Source: Pedobacter sp. MC2016-15 (GTDB lineage: Bacteria > Bacteroidota > Bacteroidia > Sphingobacteriales > Sphingobacteriaceae). From it: DNA of 64,000 nt. A model generated the notes under the pieces. That model saw nothing but the letters and a program-made list of their open reading frames with translations, ran no database searches and was not told where the DNA came from. This document shows positions 2,607-47,473 of the stretch, piece after piece; within the stretch, counting starts at the first letter, position 1, and each line of letters begins with the position of its first letter. The position numbers and the translations under genes are program-made. The stretch spans positions 124,001 to 188,000 of the forward strand of contig NZ_JAPIVS010000005.1 of the NCBI RefSeq assembly GCF_026239695.1, read 5' to 3'.

Positions 2607-4331
2607 ATGGATCTACTTAACGACTCTCTCTTCAAAGCCCTGTTTGATACAGCCGTTCCCCGTGTGATTTTAAAAGCTGATGTGCCCAACTTCACCATTC
2701 TGGCCTACAATAAAGCTTATGAGCTGGCTACATATAACAACGGAAATGATATCAGAGGCAAGACCTTGTGGGAAGTTTATGATCCTGAACTTGCCGTAGG
2801 TGAAGGCGCTGTCAAGCTACCCGAGGCACTCACACGCGCAGTGATCAACCGGGAAACGGTATATATGCCACCGTTCCACTACAACATCCCTTCGGCGGAG
2901 CCCGGACAGATGGAAACCTCCTGGTGGGAACTGGAGATCATCTATATTCCGGCTTCCGGCAACGCAGAAGCATGTCTGCTTACCACCACCTATAACATCA
3001 CTGAAAGAATTGTCAGCAGACAGAATGAGAGCAATGCCCTCGAACGTGAAATGGAGATGGGTAAGGAACTCGCTGTCATTAACGAAGAACTTTCCGCTGC
3101 CAATGAAGAGCTCAATTCTGCAAACGAGGAGATCACGGTGGCCAATGAGGAACTGTCCAACACCATTGCAGAGCTAGCCTTTCTCAACGATGAACTGGGG
3201 ATGATGAACGAAGAACTCATGCATACCCAGCTCAACCTCAAAACACTCTATTCAGAGCTGGAGCAACGGGTGGAAGAACGCACGCATGAACTTGCGGAGA
3301 GTGAACAGCAGTTCAGGCAGCTTGCAGACTCCATCATACAGATGGTCTGGATAACGGACGAAAATGGAATCCCGATTTACTATAACCAGCGGTGGGAAGA
3401 TTTTGCAGGTCATCTGGATCCTGAACAGGGTGAAGCCGACTGGTACCGGGTTTTTCATCCCGATGATGCGGACAGGGTCAGGGAGGTCTGGCTGCGCTCT
3501 CTGGAAACAGGTGATCCTTATGAGCTGGAATACAGGCTGAAAAATCTTAAGGGAGAGTTTATCTGGATCCTCGGTCGTGCGGCACCCTTCCGGGATAAAG
3601 ATGGTAAGATCATCCGCTGGTTTGGCACCTGTACAGATATCCAGGAAATGAAAATGGCAGAAGCTAAAAAGGACGACTTCATCAGTATCGCCAGTCATGA
3701 GCTCAAAACTCCTGTAACAAGTCTCAAAGCGTCACTGCAACTGCTCAATAAGTATAAGAATAGCGACGAGAAAAAGATCATACCTGCACTGGTAGATCAG
3801 GCCTGCAGAAGTTCTGACAGGGTAAGCCGCCTGATTGACGACCTCCTCAATGTGGGTAAGCTTAACCAGGGGCAGCTGAACCTCAGTAAAAAATGGTTTA
3901 AACTATCGGGGCTCATTGAAGAATGCTGCGGTTATGTGCAGCTTGCTGGTGAGAACAAAATCTCCATCAGTGGCCATACAGAAGTAGAGGTTTTTGCCGA
4001 TGCGGGACGTATCGATCAGGTACTGGTAAATTTCATCAATAACGCCGTAAAATATTCAGGTACCTGCCAGGATATCCAGGTAATGATAGAAAAACAAGAG
4101 CATACCGTGCGGGTTTCTGTAGTTGATCAGGGGCAGGGGATACCCAAAGAAAAATTGCCACATCTGTTCGACCGCTATTATAAAGTTGATGAAGCGGGGG
4201 CACAGTATTCCGGTCTAGGACTGGGCCTTTATATCAGTGCTGAAATCATCAGGAAACATGAGGGTGAGATCGGTGTGAGCAGTGAACTGGATAAGGGCAG
4301 TACTTTCTGGTTTACCCTACCGATCCAATAG
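2607..4331 (+). CDS. PAS-domain sensor histidine kinase with central coiled coil
   Basis: This 574-residue kinase has no membrane segment. An N-terminal PAS-like module (about 5-130) is followed by a coiled coil (130-225) with seven-residue repeats built on NEEL/ANEE. A second PAS plus PAC region (about 229-350; WFGTCTDIQEMK ends it) leads to HisKA, with the phospho-acceptor H364 in SHELKTPVTS. The HATPase_c domain has an N-box (FINNAVKY) and G-boxes (DQGQGIP, GLGLGLYIS). Input is likely cytoplasmic and small-molecule or redox based. No response regulator is adjacent. Its kinase core closely resembles that of the Kai-operon kinase at 39201, so the two are paralogues. Confidence 0.9.
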   Translation: MDLLNDSLFKALFDTAVPRVILKADVPNFTILAYNKAYELATYNNGNDIRGKTLWEVYDPELAVGEGAVKLPEALTRAVINRETVYMPPFHYNIPSAEPGQMETSWWELEIIYIPASGNAEACLLTTTYNITERIVSRQNESNALEREMEMGKELAVINEELSAANEELNSANEEITVANEELSNTIAELAFLNDELGMMNEELMHTQLNLKTLYSELEQRVEERTHELAESEQQFRQLADSIIQMVWITDENGIPIYYNQRWEDFAGHLDPEQGEADWYRVFHPDDADRVREVWLRSLETGDPYELEYRLKNLKGEFIWILGRAAPFRDKDGKIIRWFGTCTDIQEMKMAEAKKDDFISIASHELKTPVTSLKASLQLLNKYKNSDEKKIIPALVDQACRSSDRVSRLIDDLLNVGKLNQGQLNLSKKWFKLSGLIEECCGYVQLAGENKISISGHTEVEVFADAGRIDQVLVNFINNAVKYSGTCQDIQVMIEKQEHTVRVSVVDQGQGIPKEKLPHLFDRYYKVDEAGAQYSGLGLGLYISAEIIRKHEGEIGVSSELDKGSTFWFTLPIQ

Positions 4332-36833: not shown

Positions 36834-38573
36834 ATGTCATCATTGCAAACATCACCAAATAATACAGAAACCCCTTTAAAAACATTACCCAAAACTCCAT
36901 CCGGAATCAATGGTCTTGATCAGATCACGATGGGAGGTTTGCCTACAGGCAGACCGACACTAATCTGTGGTAGCACTGGTTGCGGAAAAACTTTATTTTC
37001 CTTAGAATTTTTGATTAGAGGAGCTCAGGAGTTTGATGAGCCCGGCGTTTTTATGGCTTTTGAAGAGAAGCCACAGGAACTTGCCATGAACGTTGCCTCG
37101 CTCGGTTTTGATCTTGAAAAACTACAGGCTGAGAAAAAGATCAAGGTTGACTATGTACATATTGACCGAAGTGAGATTGAGGAGACAGGGGAGTATGATC
37201 TGGAAGGTTTGTTTATTCGTTTAGGCTATGCAATTGATACTATCGGCGCAAAACGCGTTGTGCTGGATACTATTGAAAATTTATTTGCTGGCTTGACCGA
37301 TGAGGGTATTTTGCGTGCCGAAATTCGCAGACTCTTTGGCTGGTTAAAAGAAAAGGGTGTAACGGCGATCATCACTGGAGAACAGGGAGAAAAAACATTG
37401 ACCAGACAGGGCCTGGAAGAGTATGTTTCTGATTGCGTAATTTTGTTGGATCACCGGATCATTAACCAAATCTCGACACGCCGGTTAAGAATAGTAAAAT
37501 ACCGGGGTACTGTTCATGGCACAAATGAATATCCTTTCCTTATTGATGAGGAGGGGATATCAGTGCTACCGGTAACCTCGCTTCAATTAGATAAGCCTGT
37601 CTCTTCCACAACGATACCTACAGGAATACCAGCACTGAACGAGATGTTCAGTGGAGGCGGATTTTACCGAGGCAGTAGCGTGCTTGTATCCGGCACAGCT
37701 GGCACTGGTAAAACCAGTGTGTCTGCCAGTTTTGTAAACCAAGCCTGTCTGGATGGACACAAATCTTTGTTTTTCGCTTTTGAGGAATCTCCTCAGCAAA
37801 TTATCAGGAATATGCGTTCCATAGGCATGGACCTTCAAAGTCATATCGATGCCGGTTTGCTGCAGTTTTATGCCTCAAGGCCAACACTTTATGGATTGGA
37901 GATGCATCTTGTAGCCATACATAAGGCGATTAAAAAATTTAAGCCGCAGGTGGTTGTACTGGACCCTATTACCAATCTAATCACTATCGGATCAGTAAGT
38001 GAAGTGAAAGCTATGTTGGTACGTTTGATTGACTTCTTACAGGAAGAACAAATAACAGTGATGTTTACTGCATTGACACTTAACAATATTGTTAACGAGC
38101 AAACAGATGAAGGAGTATCTTCACTGGTTGATGCCTGGATACTGATAAAAGATATTGAGATGAACGGCGAACGCAATAAAGGTTTATATGTGATGAAATC
38201 ACGCGGTATGCGCCACTCTAATCAAGTACGTGAGTTTGTGATAGGAGAAGACGGACTTGATCTTCTTGATGTTTATCTTGGACCTGATGGCATTCTTACG
38301 GGATCTGCCAGGGAAGCGCATAAATTGGAAGAGCAAACAGGCGAAATGATCTACACTAGTGCAATTAGCAGGAAGGACCGTGAACTGGAGCGCAAACGGA
38401 AAGTTTTAGAGAGCAAAATTGATAGCTTAAAAGCCGAATTTGAATCAATCGAAGAAGAGCTGAATAAAGTTTACACCGAAGAAGAGATAAAAAGAGATAT
38501 TACCAATCAGACGCGAAAAAAAATTACAAACTTGCGCAGTACCACCACGCCGTCTGCAGGTGAACAATCGTAG
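36834..38573 (+). CDS. kaiC: KaiC-type double RecA-fold ATPase/kinase
   Basis: This 579-residue protein has two tandem KaiC domains. CI has Walker A GSTGCGKT (46-53), catalytic E77/E78 and Walker B RVVLD (141-145). CII has GTAGTGKT (287-294), E317/E318 and VVVLD (373-377). The autophosphorylation region [10 protein letters not shown] gives T424, S429 and S430 at the places of cyanobacterial T426, S431 and T432, so the sites are present as Thr-Ser-Ser. The tail after CII is longer than in Synechococcus KaiC and ends in a charged coiled coil (about 512-555). It leads an operon with two kaiB genes and a kinase; no kaiA is seen. Confidence 0.95.
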
Positions 38574-38580
38574 ACCATAC

Positions 38581-38868
38581 ATGAAAGAACAATACGAACT
38601 CAGATTATATATAGCGGGAAAAACGCAAAAATCAGTTACGGCCCTAAATAACCTAAAGAAATATTGTGAAGAACATTTGCAGGATCAATATGTTATAGAA
38701 GTAATAGACCTTCTGGTAAATCCTCAGCTCGCTGAAGGAGACCAGATTTTTGCAGTGCCTACACTCGTAAAAAAAGTGCCGGAACCAGTTAGAAAGATCA
38801 TTGGCGACTTATCAAATGAAGAGAAAGTACTAGTGGGATTAAACATACGCCCTAAACAAGCACAATAA
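38581..38868 (+). CDS. kaiB: KaiB, first copy
   Basis: This 95-residue thioredoxin-like KaiB has [16 protein letters not shown] at the start. It then has the fold-switch half [24 protein letters not shown], split here by [13 protein letters not shown], and the C-terminal [19 protein letters not shown]. This is very close to cyanobacterial KaiB. The ATG at 38581 (7 bases after the kaiC stop) is preferred to one at 38560 inside kaiC. It should bind the CI ring of KaiC. It is 8 bases from the second kaiB. Confidence 0.93.
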
Positions 38869-38876
38869 GACTTTCA

Positions 38877-39191
38877 ATGAACGATAAGGATCATGACGTA
38901 ACCAACCTGGAGATAGAAGAAAATTCTATTCTTCACTTACAATTATTTGTTGCAGGTACATCGTCTTTGTCGGTCCGCGCAATTAATAATTTAAATGTTA
39001 TTCTCGCCGAAAACCTGGAAGGGCAATATGAACTTGATATCATTGACGTGTATCAGCAGCCACAGATTGCTTTGCAGGAGGATATTACTGCAGTACCCAT
39101 GCTCGTAAAGAAATTTCCATCGCCCAATAGAAAATTGATTGGTGATATGTCAAATAAAGCTAAGGTATTACGTGGTTTGGGAATTAAATAA
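38877..39191 (+). CDS. KaiB, second divergent copy
   Basis: This 104-residue KaiB-family protein has LQLFVAGTSSLSVRAINNLN, IIDVYQQPQIALQEDITAVPMLVKKFP (core ITAVPMLVK) and NRKLIGDMSNKAKVLRGLG. It has an acidic N-terminal extension of about 15 residues absent from the first copy. It lacks the LAE-D-I signature in exact form. It may compete with or replace the first KaiB on KaiC, or contact the downstream kinase. Confidence 0.9.
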   Translation: MNDKDHDVTNLEIEENSILHLQLFVAGTSSLSVRAINNLNVILAENLEGQYELDIIDVYQQPQIALQEDITAVPMLVKKFPSPNRKLIGDMSNKAKVLRGLGIK

Positions 39192-39200
39192 TACTCAGAG

Positions 39201-40925
39201 GTGTTAAACGCAGATAAATCAAAAGAGGAATTGCTGTATTTATTACAGGAGGCAGAATATCGGCTTGAGGAAGCGAATGATACGATAGAAGCTATACGTT
39301 CAGGGGAGATAGATGCGCTGATCGTGAGAAACGATGATGGTCATTCAATTTTTACCTTACAGGCGGCTGATCGATCGTTCAGGATTTTTATTGAGCAGAT
39401 GTCCGAAGGTGCAGTTACACTCAATCATTCAGGTATTATCCTCTACGCCAATTCCAGCTTCGCCGATATTACTGGTCTTGCACTGGAGAAAATTATCGGA
39501 CAACCTTTTCAGCGCTTCATTCCAGACTCAGCGCAGCAGAATTGGCTAATCATAATGAATGATGCATGGGAGCACCATATTAAACTGGAGTTAATTATTT
39601 ATTCAGGCGACAAGAAACAGATACCAGTACTTTTATCACTGAAAAGATTAGAATTGACTGAAGGTTTGTGCATGAGTGTTATCATCACTAATCTTTCAGA
39701 ACAACAGGAAAATCAAAGACTATTACAGGAAAAGAATGATTTACTGATTGAAGCTCAAAATGCCGCCAATCATCTCAATGCTACCCTTGAACGAACTGTA
39801 GAAGAAAGAACCCGGGCATTAACAATAAATATTGCTGAAAAGGTTCAGGTTGAAAAGAACCTCCGGACAAATGAAGAACGGCTGACGCAGATTCTGGAAA
39901 CCATGGCTGAAGGAGTCGTGATTGTTAATCGCGACAGGCAGACTACGTATGCAAATCCGATGGCCAAAAAAATCATGGCAATAAGTATGAATGCGGCCAA
40001 TGAATATGTGCAGGCCCCGTGGAAAATTTGCTGGGTAAATGGCGATGCTCTTCCGGCTGACGAATACCCTACTGTAGTGACTATGCGAACCGGTAGCCCG
40101 GTGTACGATTACGAAATTGCTGTACTGCCCGATGATGCCGAGCGCTTTTACATTTCAATAAATGCGGCACCATTACGGGACTCAGAAGGCAAAATCAGTG
40201 GTGCGATCGCAACTTTCATGGATGTTACTAATCGCAGGAAAGCAATCCAGCAGAAAGATGATTTTATCAGTGTTGCCAGTCATGAACTGAGAACACCAGT
40301 TACTTCATTGCAAGCGTCATTGCAGTTAATGCAGAAAATGCGTGACCGTCTTGATTCACCAATAGTTCCTAAATTGATACAGCAGGCGAATAAAAGTATG
40401 GATAAAATGAGGGCGCTCATCGATGATCTCTTGAATGCTACCAATATGACAGAGGGGCAGCTCCACCTTAAGAGACAGTGGATTAACTTACGCGATTTGA
40501 TAGAGGATTGTTGCCAGGAAATTAGATCTGATGATTCATTTGACATCCAGATCGTGTGCGAACCAGATGTTAAAATTTTTGCTGATGAACACAAAATTGA
40601 GCAAGTATTGGTAAACTTTATCGGTAATGCTGCCAAGTATGCACCTGAGTCAAAAGAAATAAAAATTTGTATTACTCAGGATCCAGAATTAACAAAGGTC
40701 TCTGTTATTGATGAGGGACCGGGCATTCCTCCCGCCAAAATACCGTATCTGTTTGAACGATATTATCGTGTTGATAATGATGGTAGTCAGTATTCTGGAC
40801 TTGGACTAGGTCTCTACATCTGCTCCCAAATTATTTATAAACACGGCGGAGATATTGGTGTAGAAAGCGAACTGGGCAGGGGCAGTACCTTTTGGTTCAG
40901 CCTCCCTGCTGACAAGACTACATAG
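39201..40925 (+). CDS. PAS histidine kinase of the Kai operon
   Basis: This 574-residue soluble kinase has GTG as its start codon, 9 bases after the second kaiB. The N-terminal helix (EEANDTIEAIRSGEIDALIV) and PAS (about 55-165; FRIFIEQMSEGAVTLNHSG) are of the type often found beside bacterial kaiC genes. A coiled coil, a second PAS (about 222-345) and HisKA with H361 in SHELRTPVTS follow. HATPase_c has FIGNAAKYA, DEGPGIPP and GLGLGLYIC. It lacks the KaiB-like N-terminal domain of cyanobacterial SasA, so any coupling to KaiC would be by another route. Confidence 0.92.
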   Translation: MLNADKSKEELLYLLQEAEYRLEEANDTIEAIRSGEIDALIVRNDDGHSIFTLQAADRSFRIFIEQMSEGAVTLNHSGIILYANSSFADITGLALEKIIGQPFQRFIPDSAQQNWLIIMNDAWEHHIKLELIIYSGDKKQIPVLLSLKRLELTEGLCMSVIITNLSEQQENQRLLQEKNDLLIEAQNAANHLNATLERTVEERTRALTINIAEKVQVEKNLRTNEERLTQILETMAEGVVIVNRDRQTTYANPMAKKIMAISMNAANEYVQAPWKICWVNGDALPADEYPTVVTMRTGSPVYDYEIAVLPDDAERFYISINAAPLRDSEGKISGAIATFMDVTNRRKAIQQKDDFISVASHELRTPVTSLQASLQLMQKMRDRLDSPIVPKLIQQANKSMDKMRALIDDLLNATNMTEGQLHLKRQWINLRDLIEDCCQEIRSDDSFDIQIVCEPDVKIFADEHKIEQVLVNFIGNAAKYAPESKEIKICITQDPELTKVSVIDEGPGIPPAKIPYLFERYYRVDNDGSQYSGLGLGLYICSQIIYKHGGDIGVESELGRGSTFWFSLPADKTT

Positions 40926-41814: not shown

Positions 41815-41894
41815 ATGCTGTAATGGTTTGCGAATTATAGAACATTTTAAGGATTAACATGTTCTACGGTCACATCTATACAACCATCTACTTT

Positions 41895-43085
41895 ATGATA
41901 ACAAATCTAAACTCAGATCCTGAGCTACGCTTTAGGGAATCAGCGCAGTCTGCTTTGCGATTATCAGTAATTGTGCCTGCAAAAAACGAAGCTGAATATA
42001 TCAGCAGCACGCTGGATGCTTTGCGTCTGCAATGTGATGAACTGGGAAACCCCGTGTCATATGATCTGTATGAGGTCCTCGTACTGGCAAACAACTGTTC
42101 AGATGAAACCTATGAAATCTGTAAGCAGTATCAGATCAAATATCCGCGTTTCAGGATGTATGTCCAATGCATGGAAATTCCACAACCTATTGCTCATATA
42201 GGCACTGTAAGGCGCTTGCTGATGGATGCAGCATATCACCGTTTGGTCAGTGTTGCTGGCGAAAGGGGGATTATTGTCTCTACGGATGCAGACAGTGAAG
42301 TAGATCCATACTGGGTTCATCACATTCTTGCAGAAATGGACAAAGGTGTGGATGTTGTGGGTGGAAGGATTTTGCCGCGCGATACGCCGGCATTATCAAA
42401 AATACATCACCTCCGGGATGTTACCTACAGATTTTTACGCTCCAAACTGGAGTCTGAACTTGATCCATGTGCTTTAAATCCCTGGCCAAGACATTTTCAG
42501 TGTTATGGGCCAAGCCTTGCTGTCACCTGCGAAATGTATGAGAAGGCAGGTAAACTACCCATGATTCCCTTTTTAGAAGATGAAGAGTTTCGAAAAGCAC
42601 TGAAGCGTGTGGATGCAAGAATCAGGCATTCTCCAAAAGTGCGCATCTATACTTCATCAAGGCTGGAGGGCAGAGTTGGATTTGGCTTCTCGGTGCAGCT
42701 GCAGCAATGGAGCGATATGAGTCTCAAAGCAGAACAGCAATGCGTAGAGTCGCTGGAGACAGTTACTTTTCAACTGAGCCTCAAAAATGAGCTGCGTAAA
42801 TTATGGACTGCTGTAAGGGAGGGCAGAGAGGTGATCATAGAGCTAAAATCCATTGCCTTTAAAATTCATTTCAATGCGGATGATTTATATTCGATTATTC
42901 GCCATGGTGTTTATTTTGAACCTGTTTGGGAGCAAATCTATGATAACGTTGTTCAAAAAAGCCCGGCATTACTCCATGTTGAGCCTATCTCCGAGGCAAT
43001 TCAAAGGTTACGTCAGTATTTTTCATTCAGTGGTCATGCGGAAATTCCTGCAGCTTTAGAAAAACAGACTCCAATAGCTGTGTAA
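41895..43085 (+). CDS. Glycosyltransferase family 2 (glycan operon, gene 1)
   Basis: This ~396-residue enzyme has a GT-A fold: RLSVIVPAKNEAEYISSTLDAL at the start, then the nucleotide-sugar/metal motif STDADSEVD and VVGGRILPRD. The C-terminal part (after LEDEEFRKAL) has the acceptor loop of inverting GT2 enzymes. The start at MITNLNSD is preferred over 41859. It opens a six-gene operon and ends one base before the next GT gene. The sugar is unknown. Confidence 0.88.
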   Translation: MITNLNSDPELRFRESAQSALRLSVIVPAKNEAEYISSTLDALRLQCDELGNPVSYDLYEVLVLANNCSDETYEICKQYQIKYPRFRMYVQCMEIPQPIAHIGTVRRLLMDAAYHRLVSVAGERGIIVSTDADSEVDPYWVHHILAEMDKGVDVVGGRILPRDTPALSKIHHLRDVTYRFLRSKLESELDPCALNPWPRHFQCYGPSLAVTCEMYEKAGKLPMIPFLEDEEFRKALKRVDARIRHSPKVRIYTSSRLEGRVGFGFSVQLQQWSDMSLKAEQQCVESLETVTFQLSLKNELRKLWTAVREGREVIIELKSIAFKIHFNADDLYSIIRHGVYFEPVWEQIYDNVVQKSPALLHVEPISEAIQRLRQYFSFSGHAEIPAALEKQTPIAV

Positions 43086-43086
43086 T

Positions 43087-43899
43087 ATGGGCATATCAAT
43101 ATTAACATTAGTGAAGGGGAGGGAGAAAGCAATGGAGAATATGATCAATGGATTGGTCAGAAGCAGCAAATTACCTGACGAACTAATCATCATTCTGATC
43201 AATGAACAACTACGGAGGCTGCCTGAAACCCCTTTCCCGGTAAGGCAGATCATCATGAGTACAAAAATGGATCTACCTCTTGCGGCTGCACGAAACCTGG
43301 CTGCCCGGCATGCTGCGGGATCATTGTTGATCTTCCTTGATGTGGATTGTATTCCTGCTACGGATCTCATTGCCCAATACCATGCGCATCAACAGGAAGG
43401 TATTCTCATCAATGGAGAGGTAAGGTATCTGAGTAAAGACGCTGCTTCGCAACCACAAATGCTGGATGAACTTGATCAGCTGAGTGAGCCCGATCCTGTA
43501 AGATCAGATATGAACCAGCTGCCACATGAACTTTTTTGGTCGCTGAATTTTGCCTGTACTTCTGAAGATTATCATGTGATAGGTGGATTTGATGAAGATT
43601 ACACTGGCTATGGAGCTGAAGATACAGATTTCGCATTTATGGCACGCAAAGCTGAAATTCAGATGTTAAAGATTCCTGCAATAGCTTATCACCAATATCA
43701 TGACAGCTATTCGCCGCCGCTTAACCATTTTAGGGATATCGTGGCTAATGCGCGGACCTTCTTTTCCAAATGGGGAACATGGCCGATGGAGGGTTGGTTG
43801 TATATGTTTGCCGATATGGGACTGATCAGATACGATCATCAGCAACTTGTAATCATACGCGAACCTCAGGAATCTGAGATCCTGCAGGCAAAAAAATAA
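43087..43899 (+). CDS. Glycosyltransferase family 2 (glycan operon, gene 2)
   Basis: This 270-residue GT-A enzyme has ISILTLVKGREKAMENMING, the DxD motif FLDVDCIPA and the galactosyltransferase-like C-terminal motif GGFDEDYTGYGAEDTDFAFM (position about 190-209). It probably transfers a hexose to a sugar or lipid acceptor. It follows the first GT2 by one base and precedes a GT4 by 19 bases. Confidence 0.88.
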   Translation: MGISILTLVKGREKAMENMINGLVRSSKLPDELIIILINEQLRRLPETPFPVRQIIMSTKMDLPLAAARNLAARHAAGSLLIFLDVDCIPATDLIAQYHAHQQEGILINGEVRYLSKDAASQPQMLDELDQLSEPDPVRSDMNQLPHELFWSLNFACTSEDYHVIGGFDEDYTGYGAEDTDFAFMARKAEIQMLKIPAIAYHQYHDSYSPPLNHFRDIVANARTFFSKWGTWPMEGWLYMFADMGLIRYDHQQLVIIREPQESEILQAKK

Positions 43900-43918
43900 T
43901 TTATTAGCACACTACCTT

Positions 43919-45010
43919 ATGAAAATCGGCATCATTGCACACCTGAAACATCCTATAACAGCACCTTTCGCTGGAGGACTTGAGGTTTTTACCTATCAGA
44001 TTACTACTGCTTTGCAGTCGAGAGGGCACGAAGTTATACTTTTTGCCAGTTCGGGCTCGGCACCTCTGCTACCACTACAGCCTATCCTTTCTGACGAAGC
44101 ATACGACAAAAATACTGGCTTCAGAATAAAGAGGAAGGATTTACCCTCAGAATATATCGCAGAACATCATGCCTATTTTGGTTTGATGATGAACATTGAT
44201 GACTACGGGTTAGATGTGATTTTTAATAACAGTCTGCATTATATTCCTATCACCATGGCGGGAACCGTAAACACTCCAATGGTTACAGTGCTGCATACAC
44301 CCCCTTTCTATGAACTGGAAATGGCTATTGCAGCTGCTAAACCAAATCCCCGGATCGACTTTGTAACGGTTTCCGCGAAAAATGCGCAAAACTGGAGTAA
44401 ATACGTTGATGATTGTGCTGTAATCAGCAATGGCATTTCAGTGGCAGAATGGGAGTTTTATGAGGAAAGTACTGAAGAAAGTTATGCCTTCTGGTTTGGC
44501 AGAATCCATCCTGATAAAGGTTTGCACCTGGCAATTGTTGCGGCACGCAAGGCAGGCATCAGGCTCCGCATCGCAGGTGGCATTGCGGATCAAAAGTATT
44601 ATGATAAAGAAATTACTCCGCTTCTGGGAGAAGATACGGAGTTACTTGGCTTGCTGGATCAAAAAGAGCTGAACCGGGAAATTGGGCAGGCCATCGTCTG
44701 CCTGATCACTCCCTGCTGGGAAGAACCATTCGGATTGGTAGTGGCTGAGGCCATGGCATGCGGAACGCCAGTCGCTGGCTTCAGGATAGGTGCTTTACCG
44801 GAGTTGATTACTAATGAAACTGGTATTCTAACAGATTTTGGGGATACCGATGGCCTCGCAGAGGCGATCAAATATGCAACACAACTCAACCGGAAAACAG
44901 TACGGGATTATGCAGATTCTCATTTTAGCGATGAACAAATGATCAGTGCTTACGAACAATTACTGGAAAAATCCAGTTTAAAGAAAAGAACATTTAGATA
45001 CGCCATATGA
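43919..45010 (+). CDS. Glycosyltransferase family 4 (glycan operon, gene 3)
   Basis: This 363-residue GT-B enzyme has an N-terminal glycine-rich acceptor loop GGLEVFTYQI. The donor-site half has AFWFGRIHPDKGL, then the EX7E signature in EEPFGLVVAEAMACGTPV. It is a retaining hexosyltransferase by family. Its stop overlaps the start of the acyl-CoA dehydrogenase-like gene by four bases (ATGA), evidence for translational coupling. Confidence 0.92.
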   Translation: MKIGIIAHLKHPITAPFAGGLEVFTYQITTALQSRGHEVILFASSGSAPLLPLQPILSDEAYDKNTGFRIKRKDLPSEYIAEHHAYFGLMMNIDDYGLDVIFNNSLHYIPITMAGTVNTPMVTVLHTPPFYELEMAIAAAKPNPRIDFVTVSAKNAQNWSKYVDDCAVISNGISVAEWEFYEESTEESYAFWFGRIHPDKGLHLAIVAARKAGIRLRIAGGIADQKYYDKEITPLLGEDTELLGLLDQKELNREIGQAIVCLITPCWEEPFGLVVAEAMACGTPVAGFRIGALPELITNETGILTDFGDTDGLAEAIKYATQLNRKTVRDYADSHFSDEQMISAYEQLLEKSSLKKRTFRYAI

Positions 45011-46161
45011 CGCAACAGACAAACACCATACATCAAAATGAGACATTTAGTCTGGAGCAATTTGAACAGGTACTTCATGATATTGCAGAAAGAGCATCTG
45101 CCTGCGATCAAAGTCCCGATGGCCCGCGCACAGAATTCCGATGGCTGAGGGCATGCGGAGCATTACAGCTGGTACTGCCAGGTAACCTGCTCGACTTTAA
45201 CCATCCCAATACGCCTTTGCTGCTCAAGCTGCTGCGGGATGTTGGAAAAGCGAACCTCAGTGTAGGACGAATTTTTGAGGGACATATTAATACGCTTTAC
45301 CTTATCCATCTCTATGCTACAAAAAGACAGCGCGAACAATGGTACGCCGGGGTCATTGAGCATGGTCATCTTTTTGGTATCTGGAACACTCAGGATCAGG
45401 ATGTGCTGACCTTCGAGGAAAACGAGCATATCATGGAGCTCAAAGGTTCTAAAACATTCTGTTCAGGTGCAACGCTGGTAAACAGGGCGCTCATTACCGG
45501 AAACATTAATAATGATGATCGCCAGGGATGGCAGATGGCAATCATCGATATGGATCATATTTCTCCATCACGTATAGATCTTGAAAGCTGGAAACCGTTG
45601 GGTATGAAAGCATCCGGGAGTTACAAGGTTGATTTCAGCGGTTATCATCCCGATGATGCTGAACTGCTGGGGCAACCGGGAATCTACTTAAACCAGCCTT
45701 ATTTTAATGCCGGTGCAATCCGCTTTGCCGCGGTGCATTTAGGCGGGGCAGAAGCGGTATCGCAGGCTACGCTTGCTTATCTGGCAGAGTTGGGCCGCAC
45801 AGATGACCCCTTCCAAAAGCTGCGGATTTCAGAAATGATGTCGGCTGTTATCAACGGCAGACTCTGGATGGAGCAGGCGGGGAGATATTTTGACTCCTGG
45901 GTTGATGAAGGCGGGCATGATGATGATCTGATCGCATTTGCCAATATGACCCGTGTAAACATAGAAGAGATCTGCCTGAAGGTGATGGATATCAGTAATC
46001 GCTGTGTGGGTGCGAGAGGGCTGATGGAGCAATATGAACTGGGACGTATTTTCCGCGACCTTACCTTTTACCTCCGCCAACCAGCACCAGACGCAACAAG
46101 AATAAAAATAGCCGAATTTTTCATCAGTCAACCCGCTGCCTTCAATGAAAAATCTTTTTGA
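45007..46161 (+). CDS. Acyl-CoA dehydrogenase-like flavoprotein (glycan operon, gene 4)
   Basis: This 384-residue protein has the acyl-CoA dehydrogenase fold: an N-terminal helical domain, a middle beta-domain with LFGIWNTQDQDVL and LKGSKTFCSGA, and a C-terminal helical domain with FAAVHLGGAEAVSQATLAYL and VGARGLMEQYELGRIFRDL. The catalytic Glu is not obvious by eye, so a CoA substrate is uncertain. In a sugar operon it might desaturate or oxidise a lipid or amino-linked group. It overlaps the next gene by 17 bases. Confidence 0.85.
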   Translation: MTQQTNTIHQNETFSLEQFEQVLHDIAERASACDQSPDGPRTEFRWLRACGALQLVLPGNLLDFNHPNTPLLLKLLRDVGKANLSVGRIFEGHINTLYLIHLYATKRQREQWYAGVIEHGHLFGIWNTQDQDVLTFEENEHIMELKGSKTFCSGATLVNRALITGNINNDDRQGWQMAIIDMDHISPSRIDLESWKPLGMKASGSYKVDFSGYHPDDAELLGQPGIYLNQPYFNAGAIRFAAVHLGGAEAVSQATLAYLAELGRTDDPFQKLRISEMMSAVINGRLWMEQAGRYFDSWVDEGGHDDDLIAFANMTRVNIEEICLKVMDISNRCVGARGLMEQYELGRIFRDLTFYLRQPAPDATRIKIAEFFISQPAAFNEKSF

Positions 46162-47473
46162 TAAGAATACGTTCTGGGAGCAGGCTATACCTGCTGATCC
46201 GGATTTTCTCCAGAATGTACGAAGCTGCCTGATTATGGCACCGCATCCTGATGATGAATCGCTGGGATGTGCCGGATTGATTGCTACTTTACAAGCGCAG
46301 GGAACTGCTGTAAATGTTATCCTGACTACTGATGGCAGTCGTTCACATCCTAACTCCTTGAAATTTCCTGCCTCTGTGCTGGCAACGCTTCGCTTATCAG
46401 AAATGAACCAGGCGATGGAACTGCTCGGCTTAGAGACGCAGCATTTGAGATATTACGAAGCACAGGATGCCAGTATGCCTGCCAAAGGGATGCCTGGTTT
46501 TGATGAACTATTGATGCGTTTAACAGAGGATTTGAAAGATCTGCAGCCAGACCTGATACTGGTACCCTATGAGCTTGATCCGCATTGCGATCACAGGGCT
46601 ACATGGCAGCTCCTGATAGCGGCATTGGAAAAAGCTAAAATCCGGCGACCGCGAATATGGGAATACCCGATATGGCTCTATGAACATGCGGCAGCAGAGG
46701 ATATTCCGGAACTGGAAACAGGAGAACTGCTGGTGCTTGATATCAGTGAATATGCGAGCTTAAAGGAAGAGTGTATCCATGCCCATCAATCGCAAACCAC
46801 CCGTTTGATAGACGATGATCCCAAAGGGTTTATCCTCCTGCCGCAGGTCATTTCCAACTTCACCAAAGGCAGGGAATACTTTATGGAAAGGAAACGGATC
46901 AATCCTTCGGATACGCTGCATCAACAGTATTTTGAAAACATGTATCATGACAATAAGGACCCATGGGGTTTTGAAACCAGCAGTTATGAGCGGGAAAAAT
47001 ATACAGCTACAATAGGGGCTATCCCTGCCGGACAATATGCCCGTGCTTTGGAACTGGGTTGCTCCATAGGAGTTTTAACTGCGATGCTTGCCGAACGATG
47101 TGAACATTTATTGTCGATGGATATCAGCGAAACTGCACTCGCACAGGCTCGGCAGCGTTTGTCGGGCAGCTCAAATGTAGAGTTCTTACATGGGGGTATT
47201 CCAGGTGATTTTCCTGCGGGCAACTTTGATCTGATCATCATGAGTGAAGTAGGATATTACCTTTCTTCAGGCGATTTGAAACGCACGAGAGACCTGATCC
47301 TGCAGGCACTGGCTCCGAAAGGGCTACTTATTCTGGTGCACTGGACACATTTTGTCGCCGATTATCCGCTGACCGGTGATGAAGTGCATGAACTATTTAG
47401 TACAATTGGTCTGACCAACATACATGCAAACCGTACGGCCGACTACCGTATCGATGTTTACCAAAATTCCTGA
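46145..47473 (+). CDS. PIG-L deacetylase fused to NodS-like methyltransferase (glycan operon, gene 5)
   Basis: This 442-residue fusion has an N-terminal PIG-L domain (about 20-235) with zinc motif MAPHPDDESLGC and HCDHRATW. It should remove an N-acetyl group from a GlcNAc-like sugar. A C-terminal SAM-dependent methyltransferase (about 255-440) opens with YFENMYHDNKDPWGFE and has the SAM loop LELGCSIGVLT. This is the NodS type, which N-methylates the freed amine in rhizobial Nod factors. Together the two halves could deacetylate then methylate the same nitrogen; that is inference. Confidence 0.93.
   Translation: MKNLFDKNTFWEQAIPADPDFLQNVRSCLIMAPHPDDESLGCAGLIATLQAQGTAVNVILTTDGSRSHPNSLKFPASVLATLRLSEMNQAMELLGLETQHLRYYEAQDASMPAKGMPGFDELLMRLTEDLKDLQPDLILVPYELDPHCDHRATWQLLIAALEKAKIRRPRIWEYPIWLYEHAAAEDIPELETGELLVLDISEYASLKEECIHAHQSQTTRLIDDDPKGFILLPQVISNFTKGREYFMERKRINPSDTLHQQYFENMYHDNKDPWGFETSSYEREKYTATIGAIPAGQYARALELGCSIGVLTAMLAERCEHLLSMDISETALAQARQRLSGSSNVEFLHGGIPGDFPAGNFDLIIMSEVGYYLSSGDLKRTRDLILQALAPKGLLILVHWTHFVADYPLTGDEVHELFSTIGLTNIHANRTADYRIDVYQNS

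Follow-up and report, generated by a model that had tools for sequence, protein, structure and literature searches.

A KaiA-less kaiC–kaiB–kaiB–kinase operon of Pedobacter with a conserved, kai-linked segment at the N terminus of its histidine kinase

The closest characterised relative of the system described in this article—a four-gene kai operon in a stretch of 64,000 nucleotides from Pedobacter sp. MC2016-15 (contig NZ_JAPIVS010000005.1), hereafter called the window—is the KaiBC hourglass of Rhodobacter (R.) sphaeroides (PDB 8dba, 8fwi, and 8fwj; PMC10076222). It comprises the same double-domain KaiC with Ser-Ser phosphorylation sites and a long C-terminal tail, and its operon, kaiC–kaiB–PAS kinase, encodes a kinase with the same N-terminal segment as the one reported here; according to PMC10076222, it contains no KaiA. 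The same source describes that the KaiC tail joins two hexamers, that an exposed A loop permits KaiA-independent phosphorylation, and that the phosphorylation state is set by the ATP/ADP ratio. R. sphaeroides differs by one KaiB as opposed to two and by an HWE instead of a HisKA core. In Methylobacterium (M.) extorquens AM1, compared here by its published gene order, kaiC1–kaiB2–kaiB1–kaiR1 likewise combines kaiC, two kaiB, and a signalling gene (PMC8069551). A plasmid operon of Pararhizobium qamdonense (locus L096) has the same order as the window, a kinase with the segment, and one KaiB each that clusters with KaiB-1 and with KaiB-2 in the first of the trees described below; its kinase differs in carrying a HisKA plus a receiver domain. 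The cyanobacterial KaiABC-SasA-RpaA system shares KaiB/KaiC homology and the combination of a KaiB-fold protein with a histidine kinase. However, it employs KaiA and a KaiB-like domain fused to the kinase, whereas the present system lacks both and would use a free-standing KaiB-like protein as its reader.

According to a 2017 report, Bacteroidetes encode only KaiB2/KaiC2-like proteins (PMC5520375), and kaiC–kaiB–PAS kinase operons are on record (PMC4794148, PMC3164672, PMC10931921, and PMC6627678). Since the former and the M. extorquens gene order (PMC8069551) are published, the core of the operon belongs to a known kind. Added here are a conserved segment of the kinase, its confinement to kai loci, and a possible link between the second KaiB and the kinase, none of which was encountered in the open-licence PubMed Central texts consulted. 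A kinase N terminus proposed to interact with KaiC has been described beside kaiC in Ramlibacter and relatives, namely the RtaNt domain of Nt_HK (PMC3164672). Going by the descriptions, the two appear distinct: RtaNt, for which a weak similarity to receiver, SasA, and KaiB domains is reported, is found at loci lacking kaiB, whereas the present segment is predicted to form a helix and a hairpin and lies beside kaiB.

The operon consists of the following genes (positions are those of the window).

36834..38573, + strand: kaiC, double-domain KaiC of the R. sphaeroides (KaiC2) type, 579 amino acids
38581..38868, + strand: kaiB-1, 95 amino acids from ATG, of the metamorphic (fold-switching) type, with hydrophobic residues at 68 and 83
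38877..39191, + strand: kaiB-2, second KaiB, 104 amino acids, predicted fold-switched (thioredoxin-like)
39201..40925, + strand: histidine kinase, PAS-PAS-HisKA-HATPase_c, GTG start, 574 amino acids

A first-pass annotation, made from the sequence alone, had placed four genes in a row with gaps of 7 to 9 bases, and the open reading frames are indeed separated by 7, 8, and 9 bases; an alternative GTG start of kaiB-1 at 38560 would overlap kaiC. Its assignment of one double-domain KaiC, two KaiBs, and a PAS histidine kinase agrees with Pfam throughout. The kaiC product matches KaiC/ATPase with 368 bits in two stretches, KaiB-1 and KaiB-2 match PF07689 with 93.9 and 77.5 bits (cut-off 27), and the kinase contains PAS, HisKA (47.9 bits), and HATPase_c (99.7 bits). 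Neither KaiB attains the more stringent equivalog cut-offs of NCBIfam for this family (110 and 145 bits). The absence of KaiA holds as well, as PF07688 finds no match in the whole genome (99.93% complete) while detecting a Synechococcus control. Both KaiBs of the genome stem from the operon, and its double-domain KaiC is the only one, the sole other match being partial (33%, E 5e-4). Among the matches listed, the nearest named relative of the KaiC is that of Pedobacter westerhofensis (88% identity).

For comparison, 80 related loci were taken, which are the best KaiC matches among those listed and hence no random sample; counts out of 81 refer to these loci plus the window, and KaiB counts out of 79 to 78 loci plus the window. 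Exactly two kaiB genes lie 3' of kaiC in 78 of the 80 loci (L053 has one, L071 three), so that this arrangement exceeds chance. A downstream open reading frame is callable in 77 of the 80 and begins no more than 50 bases away in 76.

In these downstream proteins, conservation is highest outside the kinase core, in a stretch of about 60 residues that precedes the PAS domain. Within the window kinase, the relevant parts are located as follows.

39216..39398, + strand: conserved N-terminal segment of the kinase, 5' of PAS, candidate Kai-docking module
40251..40451, + strand: HisKA, with the SHELRTP box at residue 360
40584..40913, + strand: HATPase_c, by Pfam

The segment can be recognised by eye in each of the 77 aligned downstream proteins. 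Its mean pairwise identity over 74 proteins amounts to 0.61 (last 48 residues), compared with 0.40 for PAS and 0.36 for the kinase core (last 230 residues). For four examples searched against Pfam, the best E-value did not fall below 0.025. AlphaFold2 models the N terminus of the kinase as a 31-residue helix and a hairpin, followed by a helix leading into a confidently predicted PAS domain. The 50 fold matches listed for this first PAS are PAS proteins of many kinds, including heme and LOV proteins; given this mixture, light sensing was rejected and no chromophore is claimed. The first-pass annotation had overlooked both this segment and the C-terminal tail of KaiC, which would account for KaiA independence. 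It had described the kinase as lacking the KaiB-like domain of SasA. Pfam does find no KaiB domain in the kinase, which rules out a SasA-like identity, but this domain need not be a missing part of the system, since KaiB-2 may supply it separately.

The occurrence of the segment was determined with a profile, A1, built from 28 rows, all of them kai-linked. In the genome of the window, the operon kinase is its only match. An even sample of 395 Bacteroidota genomes yields 32 matches: 28 strong ones (E ≤ 1e-18, own genome included), every one of which adjoins KaiB with KaiC upstream, and four weak ones (E 2e-4 to 1e-3), all from genomes that gave no KaiB match. Two of the weak ones were inspected and show no Kai gene within about 3 kb. 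KaiB exceeds its cut-off in 37 of the 395 genomes, and the segment is found in 28 of these 37. A second phylum, that of L071, shows the same association: herein, A1 gives 14 matches in 11 of 246 genomes, each no more than 2.5 kb from a KaiB that exceeds the cut-off; such a KaiB occurs in 16 of the 246 genomes. When residues 1–78 of the kinase were compared with 72,556 plasmids by tblastn (E ≤ 10), 15 records were obtained, 13 of which are kaiC–kaiB plasmids of Cereibacter (nine), Pararhizobium, Sinorhizobium, Rhizobium BG4, and Falsirhodobacter; three of these lie at E ≤ 1e-4 and ten at E 0.05–0.1. The remaining two belong to Rhizobium indicum (E 3 and 9). The R. sphaeroides, Pararhizobium, and Sinorhizobium plasmid matches are confirmed by A1 with E-values of at most 3e-22, although all three are rows of the profile itself.

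What follows the segment varies. Among the 28 Bacteroidota segment proteins scanned, HATPase_c is present in 21, HisKA in 19, HD_5 in six, and a receiver in one, and all six HD_5-bearing proteins carry the HD-GYP motif. Elsewhere, the outputs 3' of the segment are HWE in R. sphaeroides, HisKA plus receiver in Pararhizobium, and HisKA_2 in three of 12 proteins scanned in the second phylum. Since the segment stays with the kai genes whereas the catalytic domains that follow it change, it looks like an input adaptor. The six HD-GYP proteins (c-di-GMP phosphodiesterase type) belong to one Bacteroidota family, f18 (loci L125, L126, L129, L130, L132, and L133), in which a Kai timer is apparently wired to c-di-GMP; these loci have a single KaiB. 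At L193, L196, and L199, the same kai locus encodes a second segment-bearing protein, on the opposite strand in the first two and in tandem in the third.

The two KaiB proteins are of different kinds. In a first tree, Bacteroidota KaiB-1 and KaiB-2 are split by branches with support of up to 100/96. In a second one, calculated with a quick method from 81 selected sequences, the segment-adjacent KaiBs of other phyla group with KaiB-2 at a modest SH-aLRT of 71–84. KaiB-1 is nearly frozen, with 42 of 89 columns invariant compared with 10 of 89 in KaiB-2. It also bears the marks of a metamorphic KaiB: positions 68 and 83 are hydrophobic in 79 of 79 sequences each, and the same holds for each of the three fold-switch prolines, whose isomerisation sets the switching rate according to PMC11551320. 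KaiB-2, in contrast, is polar at position 68 in 65, at position 83 in 74, and at both in 60 of the 79. The window KaiB-2 has N at 68 and R at 83 in place of the hydrophobic residues of the ground state; I68R and V83D are reported as two of the three changes by which the KaiB of R. sphaeroides is converted to its fold-switched form (PMC10808063).

AlphaFold2 predicts KaiB-2, on the basis of 15 close relatives, in the fold-switched order β-α-β-α-β-β-α (pLDDT 84). The structures closest to this model are the fold-switched 4kun, 8fwj, and 5jwr, followed by the N-terminal domain of SasA (1t4y and 6x61), and on 4kun it superposes with an rmsd of 1.0 at 40% identity. A KaiB-2 profile from 15 loci reaches SasA at E 7.5e-5 and 1.7e-4, whereas the matched KaiB-1 profile from the same loci finds no SasA up to E 0.01. 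Likewise, Legionella KaiB (Lpp1115, 4kun) scores 86.7 bits with the KaiB-2 and 68.2 bits with the KaiB-1 profile. KaiB-2 is thus predicted to sit in the fold-switched, SasA-like fold.

Several further KaiBs deviate from the common arrangement. The sole KaiB of L053 (Arcticibacter svalbardensis) is of the KaiB-2 type, and the kinase frame downstream of it is shortened to 312 amino acids. L100, on a Hymenobacter plasmid, and L121 have a KaiB without adjoining kaiC; that of L100 groups with KaiB-2 and lies near a MobV relaxase. At L131 and L137, KaiB is flanked on both sides by histidine kinase matches, with no KaiC match within 10 kb.

A connection between KaiB-2 and the kinase is suggested by co-variation, which was determined as partial distance correlation over 74 operons (the window and 73 loci) with 300 bootstraps. 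KaiB-2 correlates with the segment at a partial r of 0.42 once KaiC and KaiB-1 are removed, whereas KaiB-1 reaches 0.10 once KaiC and KaiB-2 are removed. KaiB-2 exceeds KaiB-1 in all 300 bootstraps, and still in 299 of 300 when the 15 operons of L065–L080 are excluded. Since the neighbours KaiB-1 and KaiB-2 are uncorrelated (0.11), adjacency alone makes no such signal. Correlations of the kinase core are all weak (0.18, 0.13, and −0.02). A contrast between the correlations of KaiB-1 and KaiB-2 with KaiC was dropped as not robust, 48 of 300 bootstraps lying at or below zero.

A natural fusion points in the same direction. At L192 (4574–6601), one frame of 676 amino acids joins a KaiB domain (residues 47–127), a degenerate segment, PAS, HisKA, and HATPase_c. 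The segment was herein recognised by eye and is not found by A1. The KaiB domain carries E68 and R83 and adjoins Bacteroidota KaiB-2 in the second tree (SH-aLRT 75). No KaiC is present in the 10 kb around the fusion; the same genome also has a kaiC–kaiB–kaiB–segment locus (L191). A putative second fusion, on the Cereibacter plasmid CP047034, was rejected, as kaiB is annotated there at normal length.

The KaiC of the window has its best PDB matches in R. sphaeroides KaiC (8dba, E 4e-195; 8fwi, E 6e-194), with residues 18–551 aligned and the tail included; Synechococcus KaiC is far behind (E ~1e-99). Two of its regions bear on the mechanism.

38118..38123, + strand: codons of S429 and S430, equivalent to S413/S414 of R. 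sphaeroides (aligned with 8dba)
38313..38570, + strand: C-terminal tail, 86 amino acids after LTGSAR, coiled-coil-like by eye, aligned with 8dba to residue 551

The Walker-A Lys/Thr and the Glu-Glu pairs of both KaiC domains are intact, and the Walker-A lysines and Glu-Glu pairs are invariant in the 81 sequences. The claim that catalytic residues and phosphosites are kept in the window therefore stands. S429 (79/81) and S430 (81/81) are also kept among the related sequences, whereas T424, though present in the window, is not generally conserved (61/81). After LTGSAR, the tail extends over 67–95 residues in all 81 sequences (86 in the window), as compared with 89 in R. sphaeroides and 1 in Aquisphaera, and its conserved pattern RKDREI-RKRKvLE-EFES looks by eye like a coiled coil. 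Hence, the window KaiC has these sequence marks of the R. sphaeroides type: two intact KaiC domains, a C-terminal extension of ~50 amino acids, and two serines at the phosphorylation sites.

Taken together, the findings are best accounted for by an hourglass in which the ATP/ADP ratio drives KaiBC and the state is read out via KaiB-2 and the kinase segment, in the manner of a "split SasA." Judged from sequence comparisons and models, we give this proposal a little less than an even chance. Herein, KaiC would autophosphorylate on S429/S430 at high ATP/ADP, and its tail would, by homology, join two hexamers and replace KaiA. KaiB-1, as the metamorphic KaiB, would switch its fold slowly, bind the CI ring after ATP hydrolysis, and drive dephosphorylation, again by homology. 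The diverged KaiB-2 would reside mainly in the fold-switched, SasA-like state and couple the state of KaiC to the kinase, which is predicted to receive it via the N-terminal helix-hairpin segment, as location, co-variation, and the one natural fusion suggest. The kinase would then phosphorylate a response regulator encoded elsewhere. The KaiB-like domain and the kinase of cyanobacterial SasA would, in effect, be split over two proteins, and the output would be the energy state or elapsed hours as opposed to free-running 24-h time. The genes, motifs, conservation, association, and phylogeny are observed directly; binding, phosphorylation, and timing in the operon are inferred.

A number of findings weigh against this proposal. 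Regarding the fold of KaiB-2, the modelling covers KaiB-2 alone of the two KaiBs, and whole-family KaiB alignments by themselves show fold-switched contacts. KaiB-2 keeps the three prolines of switching KaiBs (79, 79, and 72 of 79), unlike the fold-switch-stabilised 4kun and 8ubh, and the latter, KaiB-TV4, scores 69.3 bits with the KaiB-2 and 70.4 bits with the KaiB-1 profile. In the second phylum, nine of 10 segment-adjacent KaiBs are non-polar at 68 and 83, and the fold-lock residues were hence rejected as a general mark of KaiB-2 outside Bacteroidota. The segment hairpin is modelled at low confidence (pLDDT 52–60). PAS shows a co-variation like that of the segment (KaiB-2 0.42, KaiB-1 0.16), and KaiC itself correlates with the segment at 0.30 and with PAS at 0.46 after removal of both KaiBs. 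The co-variation thus extends beyond the segment and concerns the sensory half of the kinase as a whole; it may also stem from kaiB-2 and the kinase gene having been transferred together. As for the fusion, 23 of 150 genomes from the order of L192 yield matches, but only at L192 does an uninterrupted frame cover both parts, and the 395 Bacteroidota genomes contain no KaiB-kinase fusion, the longest frame around an over-cut-off KaiB being 199 amino acids. KaiC stops before the long tail at three of 27 segment-bearing Bacteroidota loci (L109, L114, and L118), so that segment and tail are not strictly coupled and the tail was rejected as a fixed companion of the segment; L109 and L114 have one KaiB only. 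A1, being built from kai-linked rows, favours kai-linked finds and can miss diverged relatives elsewhere. The main argument against such a bias explaining the confinement to kai loci is the gap between E 1e-18 and 2e-4. Finally, a single KaiB is found at eight of the 28 Bacteroidota segment loci (the six of family f18, G130, and G234) and in R. sphaeroides. KaiB-2 is therefore not required for the segment, and one KaiB can suffice.

These single-KaiB loci make a direct reading of KaiC a serious rival, in which the docking partner of the segment is KaiC, either by itself or with any KaiB bound to it, and KaiB-2 only tunes KaiC as a competitor or period modulator. The correlations of KaiC with segment and PAS are in line with it. 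However, the correlation of KaiB-2 with the segment is the stronger one, one natural fusion joins a KaiB-2-type domain to a kinase of this kind, and KaiB-2 does not show the near-invariance of KaiB-1; we regard direct reading as possible, if on the doubtful side. Owing to the PAS co-variation and the one-KaiB loci, weight is shifted from the split SasA toward this alternative. The operon might also encode a common type of KaiC-linked stress regulator that keeps no time and works as a static switch under UV, temperature, or energy stress. In M. extorquens, the operon of the same order has UV and temperature phenotypes (PMC8069551), a stress role is described for the Legionella Kai homologs (PMC11372060), and the system is patchy, being present in 30 of 119 genomes of the window's genus, with flanking proteins matched near only two of the 80 loci. 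Conversely, catalytic residues, S429/S430, and the tail are kept in 79–81 of 81 sequences, as in the R. sphaeroides phosphorylation cycle. A purely static switch thus seems possible rather than probable; the stress-switch and hourglass readings are compatible with each other. The earlier suggestion of a timer or stress switch in place of a true circadian clock fits both the KaiA-less hourglass of R. sphaeroides (PMC10076222) and the M. extorquens phenotypes. For a self-sustained circadian oscillator in this heterotroph, one may invoke the complete KaiC and KaiB and the two KaiB copies, which could supply delayed feedback. Yet the genome has no KaiA match and the R. sphaeroides hourglass needs an external ATP/ADP change (PMC10076222), which renders an oscillator very improbable.

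Beyond the hourglass with its split SasA, the segment might constitute a general Kai output adaptor: about 60 residues, confined to kai loci, present in several phyla, docking on KaiB (KaiB-2 where there are two), and equipped with interchangeable outputs (HisKA, HWE, HisKA_2, or HD-GYP). This generalisation is put forward tentatively, its chances lying clearly below even. If it applies, SasA would be the fused form of a mostly split system. How the state is transmitted in KaiBC systems devoid of KaiA and SasA is a standing question (Schmelling et al.). If KaiB-2 and the segment are the link, heterotrophs that are easy to grow would allow direct tests of the output, and the segment could be used to search different phyla for Kai outputs, the apparent c-di-GMP enzymes among them.

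The surroundings of the operon are hardly shared. The two flank matches among ten flanking window proteins (up to 8 kb per side) are one AI-2E and one Crp, and shared synteny was therefore rejected; the kai cassette hence seems to travel as a unit. No response regulator lies beside the operon, and the downstream neighbours scanned contain no receiver domain. Promoter and terminator scans of the locus gave fewer matches than in shuffled sequences, and a Bacteroidetes-type promoter pattern has no exact match at the locus; a promoter is not proposed. Another PAS histidine kinase is encoded at 2607–4331 of the window; its HisKA region resembles by eye that of the operon kinase, and it has no N-terminal segment. 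Downstream of the operon, at 41859–47473, there are three glycosyltransferase-type genes, an acyl-CoA dehydrogenase-like gene, and a PIG-L deacetylase-methyltransferase fusion.

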